Source: Candidatus Peregrinibacteria bacterium
GTDB taxonomy: Bacteria > Patescibacteriota > Gracilibacteria > UBA1369 > GCA-2718715
DNA: 47,061 nt
Assembly (NCBI GenBank): GCA_014240275.1
Contig: JAAZXH010000005.1
Location: 1-47,061, forward strand
Reading direction: 5' to 3'
The translations under genes and the position numbers were made by a program. The stretch's first letter is position 1, and each line of letters opens with the position of its first letter. The notes under the pieces were generated by a model. That model searched no databases, was not told where the DNA came from, and saw nothing but the letters and a program-made list of their open reading frames with translations. This document shows positions 22,100 to 27,689 of the stretch, piece after piece.

Positions 22100-23710
22100 A
22101 TGCCAAAACCAATTAAAAATCCAAAGAGCACTTCACCAATCGACATAGCACTCATACGTTGCCCACATAACGGAATTGGAAATCCAAACGAAGTTCAAAC
22201 CTTACTTACAAACATACAACATACTATACTGCCGCTTATTTGGTTTCCACCTGAATTCCTACAATACCTACAATTTGTTAGCCTAAACCCAAACATCATA
22301 CAAAGCTCACACTTACAAAACCCACAACAACGAATTATAACGCAAGCTATTTCCGGAACTCAAACCACCTTACACTTTCCAAGGATTGGACAAAACACTA
22401 AACTTGCCAACAAAAGCAAAACCACACAGCAAAAACTCGACGCCACATTTTTTACAGATCTAGACCTTAGTAACCCAACCCTTCAAGCTAAATTCAAAAA
22501 ATTTATTTCATCAATACACAGCTTAAATCAATGGATAGAAAATTCAGTTCAAAGAGAAATCAAACAAATCTTAAGACAGCTAGCTCAAGATACTTCCAAC
22601 AAAAGCGTTGCAGTATTTTATTCCTTCCCAATGACAATTGGCAGACTTAAAAAACCAAGTATCCAAAAAAAACACGACCTTCGAGGGGGGCAGACAGAAC
22701 CTGGGTCCGTACTCTTTAAAACTTTAGTTGATAATCAAGAACTCAAAACTCCAGACGTAGAACAAGCGATCTTAGAATACTTTACAAACGCATTTGTTCC
22801 AACCTCTGACCAATACGACACAGGCCTCCATACTAAATGCAGCACAGTGGACTTCAACTCTTTTTGTGAGGCTATTGCATTGAGTAACATCATTACCACG
22901 TACCAAAACAAACCAGCCGACTATTTAACTCATAACAACTTATTATTTTGTATTGCGGCTGACATCATGGCACAAAACAACTTTCAAAAAACAACCGAAG
23001 ACGCTGAAGAATCAAATGTAAATGGCCTATTCGAAATTCACCTAAAACTCATTGAATCGTACGAATTTATTCAAAAAGTTTTACAAAAACCAAAAGAGTA
23101 TCACCAATACATACAAGGAGTAATAGAAGAAAACCCAGAAGATTACGATGAAAACTACCAAGGAAGCTTATACGATATAATAGTTGAAGATACAAATATT
23201 ATATTTAATCAATTTAAATTATTACACGATGTCTTCGGTAGTGCCGTTTTAGAAGGTAGAAAAGTTACAGACGATCAAGACATAAAGCTAAAAGACGTAA
23301 CCTCAAAACTCGGAAATGCAAACTACAGTGGCTTTTTACCATTTATGTACAACCCATATTTAAGTAAGGCCTACAAATTGCTAGATGCCAACGAAATAAA
23401 AGACCCACAATTATTTTCAAATACAATTAGTCGATATTTCTTTGCAGAGCTGATTTCCGACGTAATCCAAGGCAACTTTAACCGCAGGTTACCCAGAGGA
23501 TCATACGACCCAGCAGTTGCTGCATTATGCAGCACCATAACCGACCGACAGCTAGAAAACTTCCTCCACAACCTCCAATTACTCAACGAAGATCAAGACG
23601 CCCAGTTTTTAATATTAAGAGACCTTCCACGCGAAATTCAATTTTCCGAAAATTTATCTGACGAGCACAAACAAACACTTCTTCAAGCCTTTGAAAAAAT
23701 CAAAAAATAG
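22100..23710 (+). CDS. Hypothetical protein, 536 residues, no recognised family
   Basis: The protein shows no signal peptide, no clear membrane segment and no motif I can assign. It is Gln/Asn/Lys-rich with many predicted helices, an acidic stretch near 340-365 (EENPEDYDENYQGS), and conserved-looking hydrophobic helices in the last third. It has its own promoter and is bounded downstream by the tRNA-Arg promoter. It opens the accessory segment that also holds the fusion protein and the collagenase-like gene. The function is unknown. Confidence 0.65.
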   Translation: MPKPIKNPKSTSPIDIALIRCPHNGIGNPNEVQTLLTNIQHTILPLIWFPPEFLQYLQFVSLNPNIIQSSHLQNPQQRIITQAISGTQTTLHFPRIGQNTKLANKSKTTQQKLDATFFTDLDLSNPTLQAKFKKFISSIHSLNQWIENSVQREIKQILRQLAQDTSNKSVAVFYSFPMTIGRLKKPSIQKKHDLRGGQTEPGSVLFKTLVDNQELKTPDVEQAILEYFTNAFVPTSDQYDTGLHTKCSTVDFNSFCEAIALSNIITTYQNKPADYLTHNNLLFCIAADIMAQNNFQKTTEDAEESNVNGLFEIHLKLIESYEFIQKVLQKPKEYHQYIQGVIEENPEDYDENYQGSLYDIIVEDTNIIFNQFKLLHDVFGSAVLEGRKVTDDQDIKLKDVTSKLGNANYSGFLPFMYNPYLSKAYKLLDANEIKDPQLFSNTISRYFFAELISDVIQGNFNRRLPRGSYDPAVAALCSTITDRQLENFLHNLQLLNEDQDAQFLILRDLPREIQFSENLSDEHKQTLLQAFEKIKK

Positions 23711-23750: not shown

Positions 23751-23827
23751 GCACTCGTAGCTTAGCTGGATAGAGCGCAAGCTTGCGGAGCTTGAGGTCA
23801 CAGGTTCGAATCCTGTCGAGTGCGCCA
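23751..23827 (+). tRNA. tRNA-Arg, anticodon GCG, CCA encoded
   Basis: The 77-base cloverleaf is complete. The acceptor stem is gcactcg/cgagtgc, the D arm gctt...gagc, the anticodon stem caagc/gcttg with loop ttgcgga (GCG at 34-36), and the T arm acagg-ttcgaat-cctgt, followed by discriminator G and CCA. GCG reads CGC and CGU. Most bacteria instead use tRNA-Arg(ACG) edited to inosine by TadA. Confidence 0.95.
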
Positions 23828-23837
23828 TTTTTAAAAT

Positions 23838-23866
23838 TTGACAAAGATCACAAAGGAGAGTATATT
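23838..23866 (+). promoter_or_regulatory. Promoter of the LOG-MTase-PBP fusion gene
   Basis: A perfect TTGACA (23838-23843), a 17-base spacer and TATATT (23861-23866) lie 11 bases after the tRNA 3' end. The predicted start near 23873 leaves about 18 bases before ATG 23891. No terminator separates it from the tRNA, so read-through is also possible. Confidence 0.65.
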
Positions 23867-23890
23867 ACATGGGTATACTTAATTTTATCT

Positions 23891-26164
23891 ATGCAAAATA
23901 GAAAAGGTTATGTTTACAAAGTAACAGTTTTTGGATCAAGAAATACCCTTGACCAACATACCATAGTTGATTCAAAAGCCATTTGTAGATATCTTGCACA
24001 AAATAAAGTAACACTAGTAAATGGCGCAAGCCAAGCCGGAGTTATGGGATTCACAAGCAAGGAAATGAAAAAACAGAATGGTCAAACATACGGAATTGGG
24101 CTCTACAAAGTAGACCCGCATGCCAACAAATATCTAGATGATTGGGAAGCTTACAACTTTCATTATGAAAGGCAAAAGCGCCTAATTGAACTTGGAGACG
24201 CCTACATAGTTTTTACAGGTGGCTTAGCTACACTTTATGAAGCAATTGATGTTCATCTTATGCAATTTTTAGGTGAAATTGATAACCCACTTATTTTTGT
24301 GGGTAAATTTGCAAATAAATACAAGCAGTTATTGCAATTTTTAGAGTCTAATAATCAACTGCATAAACTACCATCGAATATTCATTTTGCAGAAAGTTCA
24401 GAGCAGGCTATCGAAATTTTAGATAAACATTTAAAAAACCTACAAAAATCTAATCAATCTAATAAAACATACTACCCAAGCTTAAGTGCAGAAGAAATTT
24501 ACAAGCACATCAAACAAAATCAAAACCCATATCATATTTTATTTAATGGTGTTGAAATGCAAGTTAATCCAAATGTTTACCCATCCAATCGCTTTCGTAG
24601 TTCCAAAATGCTAGCACAAATTGTCGCTGATCGCTCCAAAGGCAAAAAAGTCGCAGACATTGCCTGCGGAAATGGGGCCATGGGTCTTATTGCAGCTCAC
24701 AATCAAGCCAAACATGTTATACAAGTTGATATCAATCCAGCTGCAGTTGAAAACGCTAAAGAAAATATTAAAGCACATAATTTAGAAGACAAAATGGAAG
24801 CTTACGAAGGAGATATCTTTGAACCCCTCTCTTATCGCTTCCATAATTACTTTGATGTAATTTATTTCAACCCACCATTTCATAGAGACACCAAATTTAA
24901 AAACGACAAATTAATGTACGCTTTTTATACCCAAGGTAGAGAAGGGGGAGTCCTAGAAAAATTCCTAAAACGTGCCAAATACTACTTAGCACCCAAAGGT
25001 GAAATCATTTTGGGATTTTCCAACAAAGACCCAGAAAATCTGAAATACCTAGAGGAATGTCTAACAAAATACAATTATAATTTTGAACTTAAATGGCATG
25101 AAAATCAAAACACATATGCTGATAACCGAGTTTATAAAATCACCTTGAAAGAGGAAATAATCAAAAAGAAGAAAAAACAAAAACAACCAAAAATCAAACT
25201 AGGAATTGCTACATCTAATACAGGACAAGCTGCAAACGATGGCGAATTAATTACCAATGGTATCAAACTAGCCCTTAAAGAACTAAAACAAGAAGAAATC
25301 AAAATAGAAATCGGAATTATCGATGATCAAAGCCAACCAACCCATGCAATCAAAGGAACGTTAGACCTAATTCAAAAATTTAAGCCAGATGCTTTAATAG
25401 GTCCAACCTGGAGCTATGTTATAGATTCCGTAATACCCCTTTTAGAAGATGCTAAAATCCCATATTTTACACCGGCCACCTCAACAGAACTTGTAAACTT
25501 TGAACCTGATTTCATGATTAGCGGCAGCTCAAAATCTCTTTATAAAAAATATTGTATAAGTCATTGGATCAAACAAAATTTTATTAAAAAAAGCTGCTAC
25601 ATTGGTAAAAAAATGAAGTGGCAAAGCATACATGCCAATGTGTTAAATGACATTAAAGATACCTTACAAATTTCGCATGCCAATCTTCAATACCAAAACT
25701 GCTCTGATTTTGAAAAAATTATCAAAAAAATAAAACAGGAAAAATACGAATGTATCATTATTGATAATTACAAATCTGACTTTTATACCTTTTTAAAACT
25801 AATTCAAAACGCAAAAATCAACATCCCAATTATATGCAACATTAGTATCGATAAACACTTGAAAAAAGAAATCCAAATCCTCGAGCTGAAAAACCCAATC
25901 TACCAAATTGAATCATCAATTCCGAAAGCATTTCAAGAAAAATACTATCACGAGTACCCTAAAAGCGAATGTTCACGCTACGCTTTTAATGCATACGCCG
26001 GAACCCACTTATTAGTTCAATCAATTTTAAATAAAGGGAAATCCAGTATTAAAGAATTTCTTATTCAGAATATTAACCCTTGTATTTTTCAAGAGACCTT
26101 TGAGTTTGACCAACACGGAGACTTAAGCTCATCAAATTGGGAAATTAAAAAAATCAATATCTAA
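23891..26164 (+). CDS. Three-domain fusion: LOG-like nucleotide hydrolase + class I methyltransferase + type I periplasmic-binding fold
   Basis: From ATG 23891 the protein has 757 residues; earlier in-frame starts lie inside the tRNA. Residues 8-185 are a LOG-like Rossmann domain: VFGSR (13-17), GASQAGVMG (45-53), ERQKR (93-97) and TGGLATLYE (109-117), where LOG enzymes have RK and PGGxGTxxE. Residues about 200-430 are a SAM methyltransferase with ADIACGNGAMGL and catalytic-type NPPF in VIYFNPPFHRD. After a Lys-rich linker, residues about 440-757 resemble branched-chain amino-acid binding proteins (IKLGIATSNTGQAANDGELITNGIKLAL, DALIGPTWS, FTPATSTEL). There is no signal peptide, so the binding fold would sit in the cytoplasm as a sensor. 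The substrates are unknown. Confidence 0.8.
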   Translation: MQNRKGYVYKVTVFGSRNTLDQHTIVDSKAICRYLAQNKVTLVNGASQAGVMGFTSKEMKKQNGQTYGIGLYKVDPHANKYLDDWEAYNFHYERQKRLIELGDAYIVFTGGLATLYEAIDVHLMQFLGEIDNPLIFVGKFANKYKQLLQFLESNNQLHKLPSNIHFAESSEQAIEILDKHLKNLQKSNQSNKTYYPSLSAEEIYKHIKQNQNPYHILFNGVEMQVNPNVYPSNRFRSSKMLAQIVADRSKGKKVADIACGNGAMGLIAAHNQAKHVIQVDINPAAVENAKENIKAHNLEDKMEAYEGDIFEPLSYRFHNYFDVIYFNPPFHRDTKFKNDKLMYAFYTQGREGGVLEKFLKRAKYYLAPKGEIILGFSNKDPENLKYLEECLTKYNYNFELKWHENQNTYADNRVYKITLKEEIIKKKKKQKQPKIKLGIATSNTGQAANDGELITNGIKLALKELKQEEIKIEIGIIDDQSQPTHAIKGTLDLIQKFKPDALIGPTWSYVIDSVIPLLEDAKIPYFTPATSTELVNFEPDFMISGSSKSLYKKYCISHWIKQNFIKKSCYIGKKMKWQSIHANVLNDIKDTLQISHANLQYQNCSDFEKIIKKIKQEKYECIIIDNYKSDFYTFLKLIQNAKINIPIICNISIDKHLKKEIQILELKNPIYQIESSIPKAFQEKYYHEYPKSECSRYAFNAYAGTHLLVQSILNKGKSSIKEFLIQNINPCIFQETFEFDQHGDLSSSNWEIKKINI

Positions 26165-26169
26165 ATCTT

Positions 26170-26191
26170 AGGCTGCCACAAGCAGCCTTTT
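26170..26191 (+). terminator. Terminator after the fusion gene
   Basis: Arms ggctgc (26171-26176) and gcagcc (26182-26187), flanked by an A/T pair, surround cacaa and run into TTTT. It begins 5 bases after the stop codon. Confidence 0.8.
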
Positions 26192-26249: not shown

Positions 26250-27689
26250 ATGCCTTCAAGCTTAAGAACTCAAAAATTCATCCTAAAAGGTATCGTTTTA
26301 ATCTTAGCCTTATCTCTTTTTAAAATAAGCCAAGCAAGATTTGCCACCCACAATCCATCACTTTTAAATGAATATAAACTATTAAGAACACCGAGCTGCC
26401 AACATTTAGCTGGAATTAAATTTAAATGCAAAAATCAAAATCAAACTTTTATTCTAAAAAACAGCTGTACCAATAAACGCGAATGGATCAAAAAAGCCAC
26501 CTACTTTTGTAAGAAACAAACACAACAAACGATTAAAACCACAAACAGACTTACTCCTATTAGGAGTTTCCACTCTCACCCAAACCACCTACACCATAAT
26601 GAACATGAGCATCAACACAACCAACCAGGACCTGCTCCACAAAATATACCAAATTATGGGAGTTTTCAAAATTCAGTAGGACATGGACACCAACATGAGA
26701 TTCAAAAAGTCAGTGGGCCTGAATTCAGAGATAGTTTCGCAGGACCAAATGACAACCCGCAACATCTCTGCAATAGCCGTGACATGATCAACTTGAACCA
26801 AAACCAACTAGCCACATACCTGAGGAATAAAACCCAAGAATGCCTAAGATACCTATTTAACTACGATGACAATGTAGCTAATATTTTCAATCAAACAAAT
26901 TTCGATCACATTAATCAAAGCATCACGAACCAACTGCAAGATGAACTTCAAATTTCGCAAATTCAAGGGCTAGTTCGCTTTATTAGAGCAGCCCTGTATC
27001 AAGAGTACTATCAGAACAACTTAAGCTTTACAGCAGATTCTAAAAACTTAGCCTTTCAAAACTTTCGTAATTTAATGAATCGCTTAAATCTTAACCTAAA
27101 CGATGAGAACCAAAACAATCTCATCAACGATATTATACCCGCTATTCCAACATCAAAAACTTACCTTGTACTGGATCAGTATAAAAACATTCTCAACAAT
27201 TATATTCAAAATCCAAACCAGTGGGAATCTTACTCAAGGAATCTAGTCATTTACTCTATATTTTATTCCATAGACAGAAGCATTGGAGTATACGACCAAT
27301 ACCAAAGACAGTATTATCACGATCAAAATTTCATCAACCATATAGACAACGAATTAATTACAATACTAGAAACTTATGCCAATAATCAGGCCCTCTATAA
27401 TTTTGAAAACCGAAGCTATCTTACAGAAAACGCCATCTGGATCTTAGGCCACCTTTCTACCTTCAGTCAACTTGGTCAACATAGCCGCATCATTGCAAAC
27501 CTTACAAATTTATTAAATGTTTTCCCTGAATTATCAGCTGGATATTTACGCTTAGTCACAACCTTTGACCACTATAATAACTGTCAAACTTCTGACCCAA
27601 ACCGCAACCTTTGTAAAGAAGACATTATCCCAGTAATTGAAAATCAAATCTTCCCAAATCGATTTAGTTTTGACGACAATACCATGTAA
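26250..27689 (+). CDS. N-terminal part of an M9-collagenase-like secreted protease, ending at an in-frame TAA
   Basis: The 479-residue reading frame starts with a signal peptide (about 1-29, ending KISQA). A short Cys-containing segment (Cys50, 60, 73, 87) and a His/Asn/Pro-rich linker (about 108-150) follow. From about 174 it resembles the M9 N-terminal helical activator domain (CNSRDMINLNQNQLATYLRN, ECLRYLFNYDD). It stops at TAA 27687-27689 just after FSFDDNTM. The same frame continues with the collagenase catalytic domain and no other stop until 29117. Alone this piece would be a secreted, non-catalytic domain. No typical start codon lies between the TAA and the catalytic motif. Confidence 0.7.
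   Translation: MPSSLRTQKFILKGIVLILALSLFKISQARFATHNPSLLNEYKLLRTPSCQHLAGIKFKCKNQNQTFILKNSCTNKREWIKKATYFCKKQTQQTIKTTNRLTPIRSFHSHPNHLHHNEHEHQHNQPGPAPQNIPNYGSFQNSVGHGHQHEIQKVSGPEFRDSFAGPNDNPQHLCNSRDMINLNQNQLATYLRNKTQECLRYLFNYDDNVANIFNQTNFDHINQSITNQLQDELQISQIQGLVRFIRAALYQEYYQNNLSFTADSKNLAFQNFRNLMNRLNLNLNDENQNNLINDIIPAIPTSKTYLVLDQYKNILNNYIQNPNQWESYSRNLVIYSIFYSIDRSIGVYDQYQRQYYHDQNFINHIDNELITILETYANNQALYNFENRSYLTENAIWILGHLSTFSQLGQHSRIIANLTNLLNVFPELSAGYLRLVTTFDHYNNCQTSDPNRNLCKEDIIPVIENQIFPNRFSFDDNTM

Follow-up and report, generated by a model that had tools for sequence, protein, structure and literature searches.

The window analysed here, a stretch of DNA of 47,061 nucleotides, contains one gene whose product combines a LOG-type domain, an NPPF methyltransferase and a transporter-type binding domain, and the question is what a cytoplasmic protein of this composition might do. 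The gene is complete and reads as one frame over 757 codons on the plus strand (23891..26164; start codon ATG at 23891, stop codon at 26162-26164), as indicated by the open reading frame and by the Pfam match of all three domains. The initial annotation, made from the sequence alone, had the frame, coordinates and length right. Its three domain assignments (LOG, NPPF methyltransferase and type I periplasmic-binding) were each recovered above the curated Pfam gathering cut-offs, its domain limits (1-190, 195-435 and 440-757) were close to those found here (about 8-188, 192-424 and 433-757), and all of the motifs that it listed (GSR, RQK, TGGLATLYE, the SAM motif and NPPF) were located in the chain.

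The gene and its flanking signals

A sigma-70-like promoter (TTGACA-17-TATATT; 23838..23866, plus strand; 11 of 12 consensus positions matched) was predicted between the tRNA-Arg gene (23751-23827) and the ATG at 23891; the call is a consensus match only, in a region that is overall no richer in such sites than shuffled sequences. The predicted promoter sets the transcription start just ahead of ATG 23891, and thus this codon was taken as the better start. A longer frame from the TTG at 23783 was rejected because this codon lies inside the tRNA-Arg gene, and the out-of-frame ATG at 23869 (MGILNFIYAK followed by a stop, with AAAGGAG ahead) was rejected because it falls within, or ahead of, the predicted promoter and transcription start. 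After the stop codon, a terminator-like hairpin was read by eye (GGCTGC-CACAA-GCAGCC-TTTT; 26171..26191, plus strand); its tail, four T, falls short of what the terminator scan requires. With the promoter-like site upstream and the hairpin downstream, the gene looks like a free-standing transcription unit. Neither a signal peptide nor a membrane segment was found in the 757-aa protein (no 19-residue window exceeded a Kyte-Doolittle mean of 1.23), which agrees with the cytoplasmic chain proposed at the outset. The host genome is 0.85 Mb in size and 79% complete, and TGA-recoded members are present in its class, which would agree with an ultra-small CPR bacterium of the class Gracilibacteria; the codon usage of all three parts of the gene is typical of the host (54th to 70th percentile of the genome). 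The downstream gene (26250-27689) encodes a Peptidase_M9_N (collagenase N-terminal) domain. For a 536-aa open reading frame upstream of the tRNA gene (22100-23710), Pfam gave no match and the other three genomes of the family gave no homologue.

Three domains in one chain

The LOG/SLOG Rossmann domain (residues 9-188; 23915..24454, plus strand) was matched in the whole protein by Pfam Lysine_decarbox (PF03641; E 1.4e-9, residues 52-172) and LDcluster4/SLOG cluster4 (PF18306; E 1.8e-9, residues 9-118), both above the gathering cut-off. Its solved sequence relatives are the LOG enzymes 5zbj, 5its and 5wq3 (Cg1261), the profile of the fused family described below matches solved LOG structures at 2.4e-16, and the AlphaFold2 blocks are mostly above 75 except at residues 71-90. 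GSR is at residues 15-17, RQK at 94-96, and TGGLATLYE, a degenerate PGGxGTxxE, at 109-117; by alignment to Cg1261, the active-site segment from R94-Q95 to TGGLATLYE occupies 24170..24241 (plus strand). Essential residues of Cg1261 are Arg155, Lys156, Thr175 and Glu178, with Asp177 almost as important: Arg155 and Glu178 are catalytic, the Thr binds phosphate, and Lys156 and Asp177 contact adenine and are needed for AMP hydrolysis (PMC5379747). All four fused proteins known to us from the searches below keep the counterparts of Arg155, Thr175 and Glu178 (Arg94, Thr114 and Glu117) unchanged. In the alignment, Lys156 corresponds to Gln95 in the window protein and to Gln or Ile in the fused relatives, Asp177 corresponds to Tyr116 and His, respectively, and PGGxGTxxE is not intact in the relatives either (AGGLGTLHE and PGAVGTFHE). 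Judged from these residues, phosphoribose binding and the catalytic pair appear to be kept and base recognition to be changed. Because base-recognition residues are lost, cytokinin or AMP chemistry is doubtful, and the cleavage of nucleoside 5'-monophosphates that the initial annotation ascribed to LOG enzymes is not transferable to this domain, in which Lys and Asp are replaced (Gln95/Ile and Tyr116/His) and the PGGxGT core is altered (PMC5379747). The scores did not reach the NCBIfam cut-offs of TIGR00730 (49.6 vs 96.35 bits) and CtkRMPhLog (32 vs 300 bits). The domain thus resembles the LOG / cytokinin riboside 5'-monophosphate phosphoribohydrolases (TIGR00730, PF03641) in its Rossmann fold, G(A/G)..G(V/L)MG loop, catalytic Arg/Glu and phosphate Thr, but differs in its fusion to a methyltransferase, the replacement of the base-contact Lys and Asp/Glu, and the degenerate PGGxGT. 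A kept catalytic pair with changed base recognition would make N-glycosidic chemistry on an unusual nucleotide more likely than cytokinin/AMP hydrolysis; alternatively, the domain could bind without catalysis. Stand-alone LOG-like proteins with the active-site variant RQ...YE, as in the window protein, are encoded by gut phage and IMG/VR contigs (L056 and L168-L172).

The class I NPPF methyltransferase (residues 192-424; 24464..25162, plus strand) was recognised by Pfam (residues 217-398, with MTS at 223-376, E 1.8e-20, above the gathering cut-off) and by the match to TrmM (PDB 7wm6, 6.4e-12), and its AlphaFold2 blocks are mostly 83-98. SAM motif I is DIACGNG (256-262), and NPPF (327-330) is part of the NPPFH motif (residues 327-331; 24869..24883, plus strand), which reads [NH]PPFH in all four fused proteins; D256, G260, G262 and D280 of the SAM motifs and PPF are invariant in them. 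The segments YYPSLSAEEIY and VYPSNRFRSS, which belong to the fused family, also lie inside this domain. The closest enzymes by sequence or structure are TrmM, which makes m6A37, METTL5, N6AMT1/HemK2 and Asc-Orf2 (9l4q), with adenine N6 or amide/carbamoyl nitrogens as targets. Nitrogen methylation is likely, given that the targets of the structural neighbours are adenine N6, glutamine amides or a carbamoyl nitrogen. Membership in a named equivalog (PrmC, TrmN, RsmC, RlmG or PRK14968) was not found, the best score being 90.1 bits against an NCBIfam cut-off of 162. The domain has the SAM motif, NPPF and fold of TrmM, METTL5, N6AMT1/HemK2, PrmC, Asc-Orf2 (a carbamoyl N-methyltransferase) and PRK14968-type proteins; unlike these, it is fused to a LOG domain, carries the family signatures VYP[PS]NRFRSS, [NH]PPFH and FSNKD, and falls under every NCBIfam cut-off tested.

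Several relatives of this domain were observed. In the host genome itself (C10), a 549-aa protein on the minus strand (L002/L086) seems to contain two tandem methyltransferase domains, the second of which is 26-27% related to that of the window protein and has NTPF in place of NPPF. A stand-alone relative (L047:433-3521) lies, as read by eye, between a solute-binding gene and ABC permease/ATPase genes. The closest stand-alone methyltransferases, with VYP[PS]DKFRTT and IPFH, are from two Chlamydiota (L090:5920-7886 and L091:4361-6271), where they adjoin similar uncharacterised Rossmann-like proteins of 391-396 aa, with a weak HcgC Pfam match in the L090 copy. A guess made by eye that the neighbour in Chlamydiae is AdoHcy-hydrolase-like was dropped, as Pfam did not confirm it.

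A Lys-rich linker (25163..25186, plus strand), which by sequence and alignment is where the other three fused proteins end, leads into the type I periplasmic-binding domain (Peripla_BP_6, residues 433-757; 25187..26161, plus strand). The Pfam match (E 3e-19; 70.3 bits vs the cut-off of 31.7) covers residues 434-710 and positions 1-291 of the 343 of the profile, and LivJ (4gnr) was matched at 8.7e-9 with phmmer. The 325-residue domain is of full length, is stop-free and begins at the mature end without a signal peptide; being internal to the chain, it has no export signal or lipobox. It therefore shares with the HAAT solute-binding proteins (LivJ 4gnr; Peripla_BP_6) the fold over about 325 residues, but it is cytoplasmic, without signal or lipobox, and C-terminal to an enzyme. 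Structure prediction of the whole chain with AlphaFold2, suggested as a check in the initial annotation, was confident for most of the LOG domain and the methyltransferase but poor for the binding domain in the main model, whose alignment consisted of fused and methyltransferase relatives. A two-sequence model of the binding domain was weak (mean pLDDT 58.9), with LivJ as the best PDB match. With the ligand site presumably placed as in LIVBP, the Ser and Thr/Ser positions align in sequence and others differ. The domain is closest to transporter binding proteins from the same order (~24% identity at best), and its branch in the tree is long. Elsewhere in the host genome (L083:5349-11357, L084:3528-7871 and L085:4609-5721) there are at least five further Peripla_BP_6 genes, together with two ABC transporters of the HAAT type, whose permeases are on other contigs, not beside the window gene; one of its Peripla_BP_6 binding proteins is encoded just upstream of a dnaK-like gene. 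Origin from these transporter binding proteins was rejected, as no such open reading frame was matched by blastp at E 1e-3. The viral scan with the binding domain gave no match. The third domain looks like a sensor added in the window lineage only.

Fused relatives and the origin of the fusion

With the window protein as a single query, no match was obtained in the genome contigs or the viral contigs, and no fused homologue was found in 4 genomes of the family, 89 of the order and an even sample of 380 of the phylum. With the LOG part as the query, all other LOG matches in 353 genomes of the class were short frames (101-264 codons). Fused kin surfaced only when an alignment of the methyltransferase relatives was used: 84,980 species genomes were scanned and two fused proteins of about 440 aa were obtained, from Ca. 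Kaiserbacteria CG10 (L089) and the Nanoarchaeales (DPANN) archaeon DT_72 (L088). A third (L177, 424 aa; genome G959 of the Kaiserbacteria order) was found in a sample of 297 genomes of that order and is the closest to the window protein (44% identity). The large scan was pattern-based and missed L177, so the counts of fusions are lower bounds. Neither 237 sampled genomes of the archaeal phylum nor 41 genomes of the family of L177 gave further fusions, and the viral scan with the fused alignment gave no match.

The three other fusions (424-445 aa; 39-44% identity to the window protein) have the same domain order, linker and motifs, but they end near residue ~420 of the window protein and all lack the binding domain. 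Common to the four proteins, over the linker and both domains, are YYP..IY, VYP[PS]NRFRSS, [NH]PPFH and FSNKD. The Kaiserbacteria (L089) and archaeal (L088) copies are ~70% identical (LOG, 74%; methyltransferase, 65%), and the window protein is 34-36% identical to its fused kin in the LOG domain and 43-52% in the methyltransferase. The four fused proteins form one group in the LOG tree (support, 92/96) and in the methyltransferase tree (95/90), where the sister is the pair of Chlamydiota stand-alone methyltransferases. As both domain trees group them, the fusion probably arose once and then moved laterally between phyla and domains of life (CPR/DPANN); the two domains would thus have been passed on as a pair, which a joint function would lead one to expect. 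Conserved neighbour genes that reveal a pathway were not found at the fused loci examined.

The LOG-methyltransferase pair is a recurrent unit for which neither Pfam nor NCBIfam has a named family, and no description of the fusion was found in the literature searched, whose coverage leaves out most subscription papers. The initial annotation regarded the whole architecture as undescribed and proposed a search for it elsewhere. The three-domain order was indeed absent from all other data searched, but its first two domains are fused in three more genomes, of CPR and DPANN. The unit to explain is therefore the LOG-methyltransferase pair plus a private sensor-like domain.

Proposed function and its alternatives

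The reading that we tentatively prefer, with slightly less than even confidence, is that of a cytoplasmic, ligand-controlled two-step enzyme acting on a small molecule derived from a nucleotide. The conserved core (residues 1-424) would couple the LOG-type domain with the NPPF-type methyltransferase. The LOG domain would bind a phosphoribose-carrying nucleotide and probably break its N-glycosidic bond, and the methyltransferase would probably methylate a nitrogen, amide or exocyclic, in this small molecule or in its product or precursor. Both centres would be active in one shared pathway, with a substrate other than ordinary AMP or cytokinin nucleotides. In the window organism only, a binding domain of the branched-chain-amino-acid type would have been joined to the C-terminus via the Lys-rich linker; by closing on a small ligand it would switch or tune the core, a control that is suggested by the architecture. 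This reading is supported by the three Pfam domains above cut-off in one open reading frame and by the fused core in four genomes from two domains of life, as well as by its preserved SAM, NPPF and LOG Arg/Thr/Glu residues and by the kinship of the methyltransferase with enzymes of adenine N6 or amide/carbamoyl nitrogen. Against the two-step enzyme are the replaced Lys/Asp and the degenerate PGGxGT core (TGGLAT, PGAVGT and AGGLGT) of the LOG domain. Against ligand control, the binding domain is very divergent and present in one genome, with no relative that shows selection in this arrangement.

Because base recognition is changed, a purely nucleotide-binding LOG domain is the main rival: the protein would be an RNA or protein methylase (TrmM-, METTL5- or PrmC-like) set by nucleotide and small-molecule levels. 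We consider this possible but rather unlikely. It would account for the altered base-contact residues and PGGxGT core, for best methyltransferase matches among tRNA/rRNA m6A and glutamine methyltransferases, and for a LOG domain that has diverged more from the fused kin than the methyltransferase has. However, the catalytic Arg94 and Glu117 and also Thr114 are invariant in the four proteins, the Kaiserbacteria-archaeal pair keeps the LOG domain better than the methyltransferase, the scores are far under the cut-offs for PrmC, TrmN, RsmC and RlmG, and an RNA-binding domain was not found in the chain. It is unlikely that the third domain is a passenger, in other words a transporter-type domain that became fused to the core by chance and has no regulatory role yet. 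The raw material was at hand in the genome, the related proteins end before it and its branch is long, but it is full length and stop-free with the signal removed at the mature end, its ligand-site Ser and Thr/Ser positions may be kept if the site lies as in LIVBP, and its host-like codon usage and distance from the transporter proteins of the genome argue against a fresh accident.

It is very improbable that the protein is a conflict (anti-phage) effector whose methyltransferase cooperates with a SLOG-type domain that senses or hydrolyses nucleotides. The link of SLOG proteins to conflict systems, raised in the initial annotation, is in keeping with the LDcluster4/SLOG match and the patchy spread over phyla and domains of life; support for a defence role was nevertheless not found. 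The sole strong PADLOC match, mad2, was rejected as generic to the methyltransferase superfamily, since it matches ordinary stand-alone methyltransferases equally well, and toxin, nuclease, transmembrane and STAND partners are absent from the chain and the adjacent genes read. That an assembly or sequencing artefact joined separate genes is scarcely credible: the three-domain protein is indeed known from a single, incomplete genome and has an A-rich junction at 25150-25200, but three independent genomes confirm the LOG-methyltransferase junction, and at the second junction the frame runs through with no stop, the codon usage before and after it is uniform and host-like, and direct repeats of note were not found.

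For the ligand control assumed in the two-step enzyme, precedents exist. AmiC has a periplasmic-binding fold and a cytoplasmic location. TrmB-Peripla_BP_5 fusions were found here in the class of the window genome. In both cases the fold can serve for sensing only, but their outputs are RNA- or DNA-binding, whereas the partner in the window protein is an enzyme, and the TrmB fusions carry Peripla_BP_5 whereas the window protein carries Peripla_BP_6. AmiC binds amides and controls AmiR (PMC3369931).

The broader claim, an undescribed bifunctional CPR/DPANN family that methylates and de-ribosylates a nucleotide-derived molecule outside the ordinary LOG range and that in one lineage came under allosteric control by an amino-acid-type binding domain, is rather unlikely as a whole. 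Much of the biosynthesis of nucleotides and amino acids is missing in CPR bacteria and DPANN archaea, which depend on other organisms. A dedicated double enzyme moving between them would point to a shared step of nucleotide-derived chemistry in episymbionts. The LOG-methyltransferase family has sequence signatures and is small, free of membrane segments and directly assayable. If the third domain gates the enzyme, a transporter-type binding fold would here act as the built-in switch of a metabolic enzyme, which is rarely seen.

The TrmB fusions (L059:1375-3306, minus strand; L060:721-2655; L062:736-2655; L063:1366-3270, minus strand) are proteins of ~640 aa that consist of a TrmB-type HTH and a full Peripla_BP_5 domain (AmiC/urea-binding-like), without a signal peptide; Pfam was run on L060 only. 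A further protein (L061:973-2655) carries another N-terminus on the same Peripla_BP_5 binding domain.
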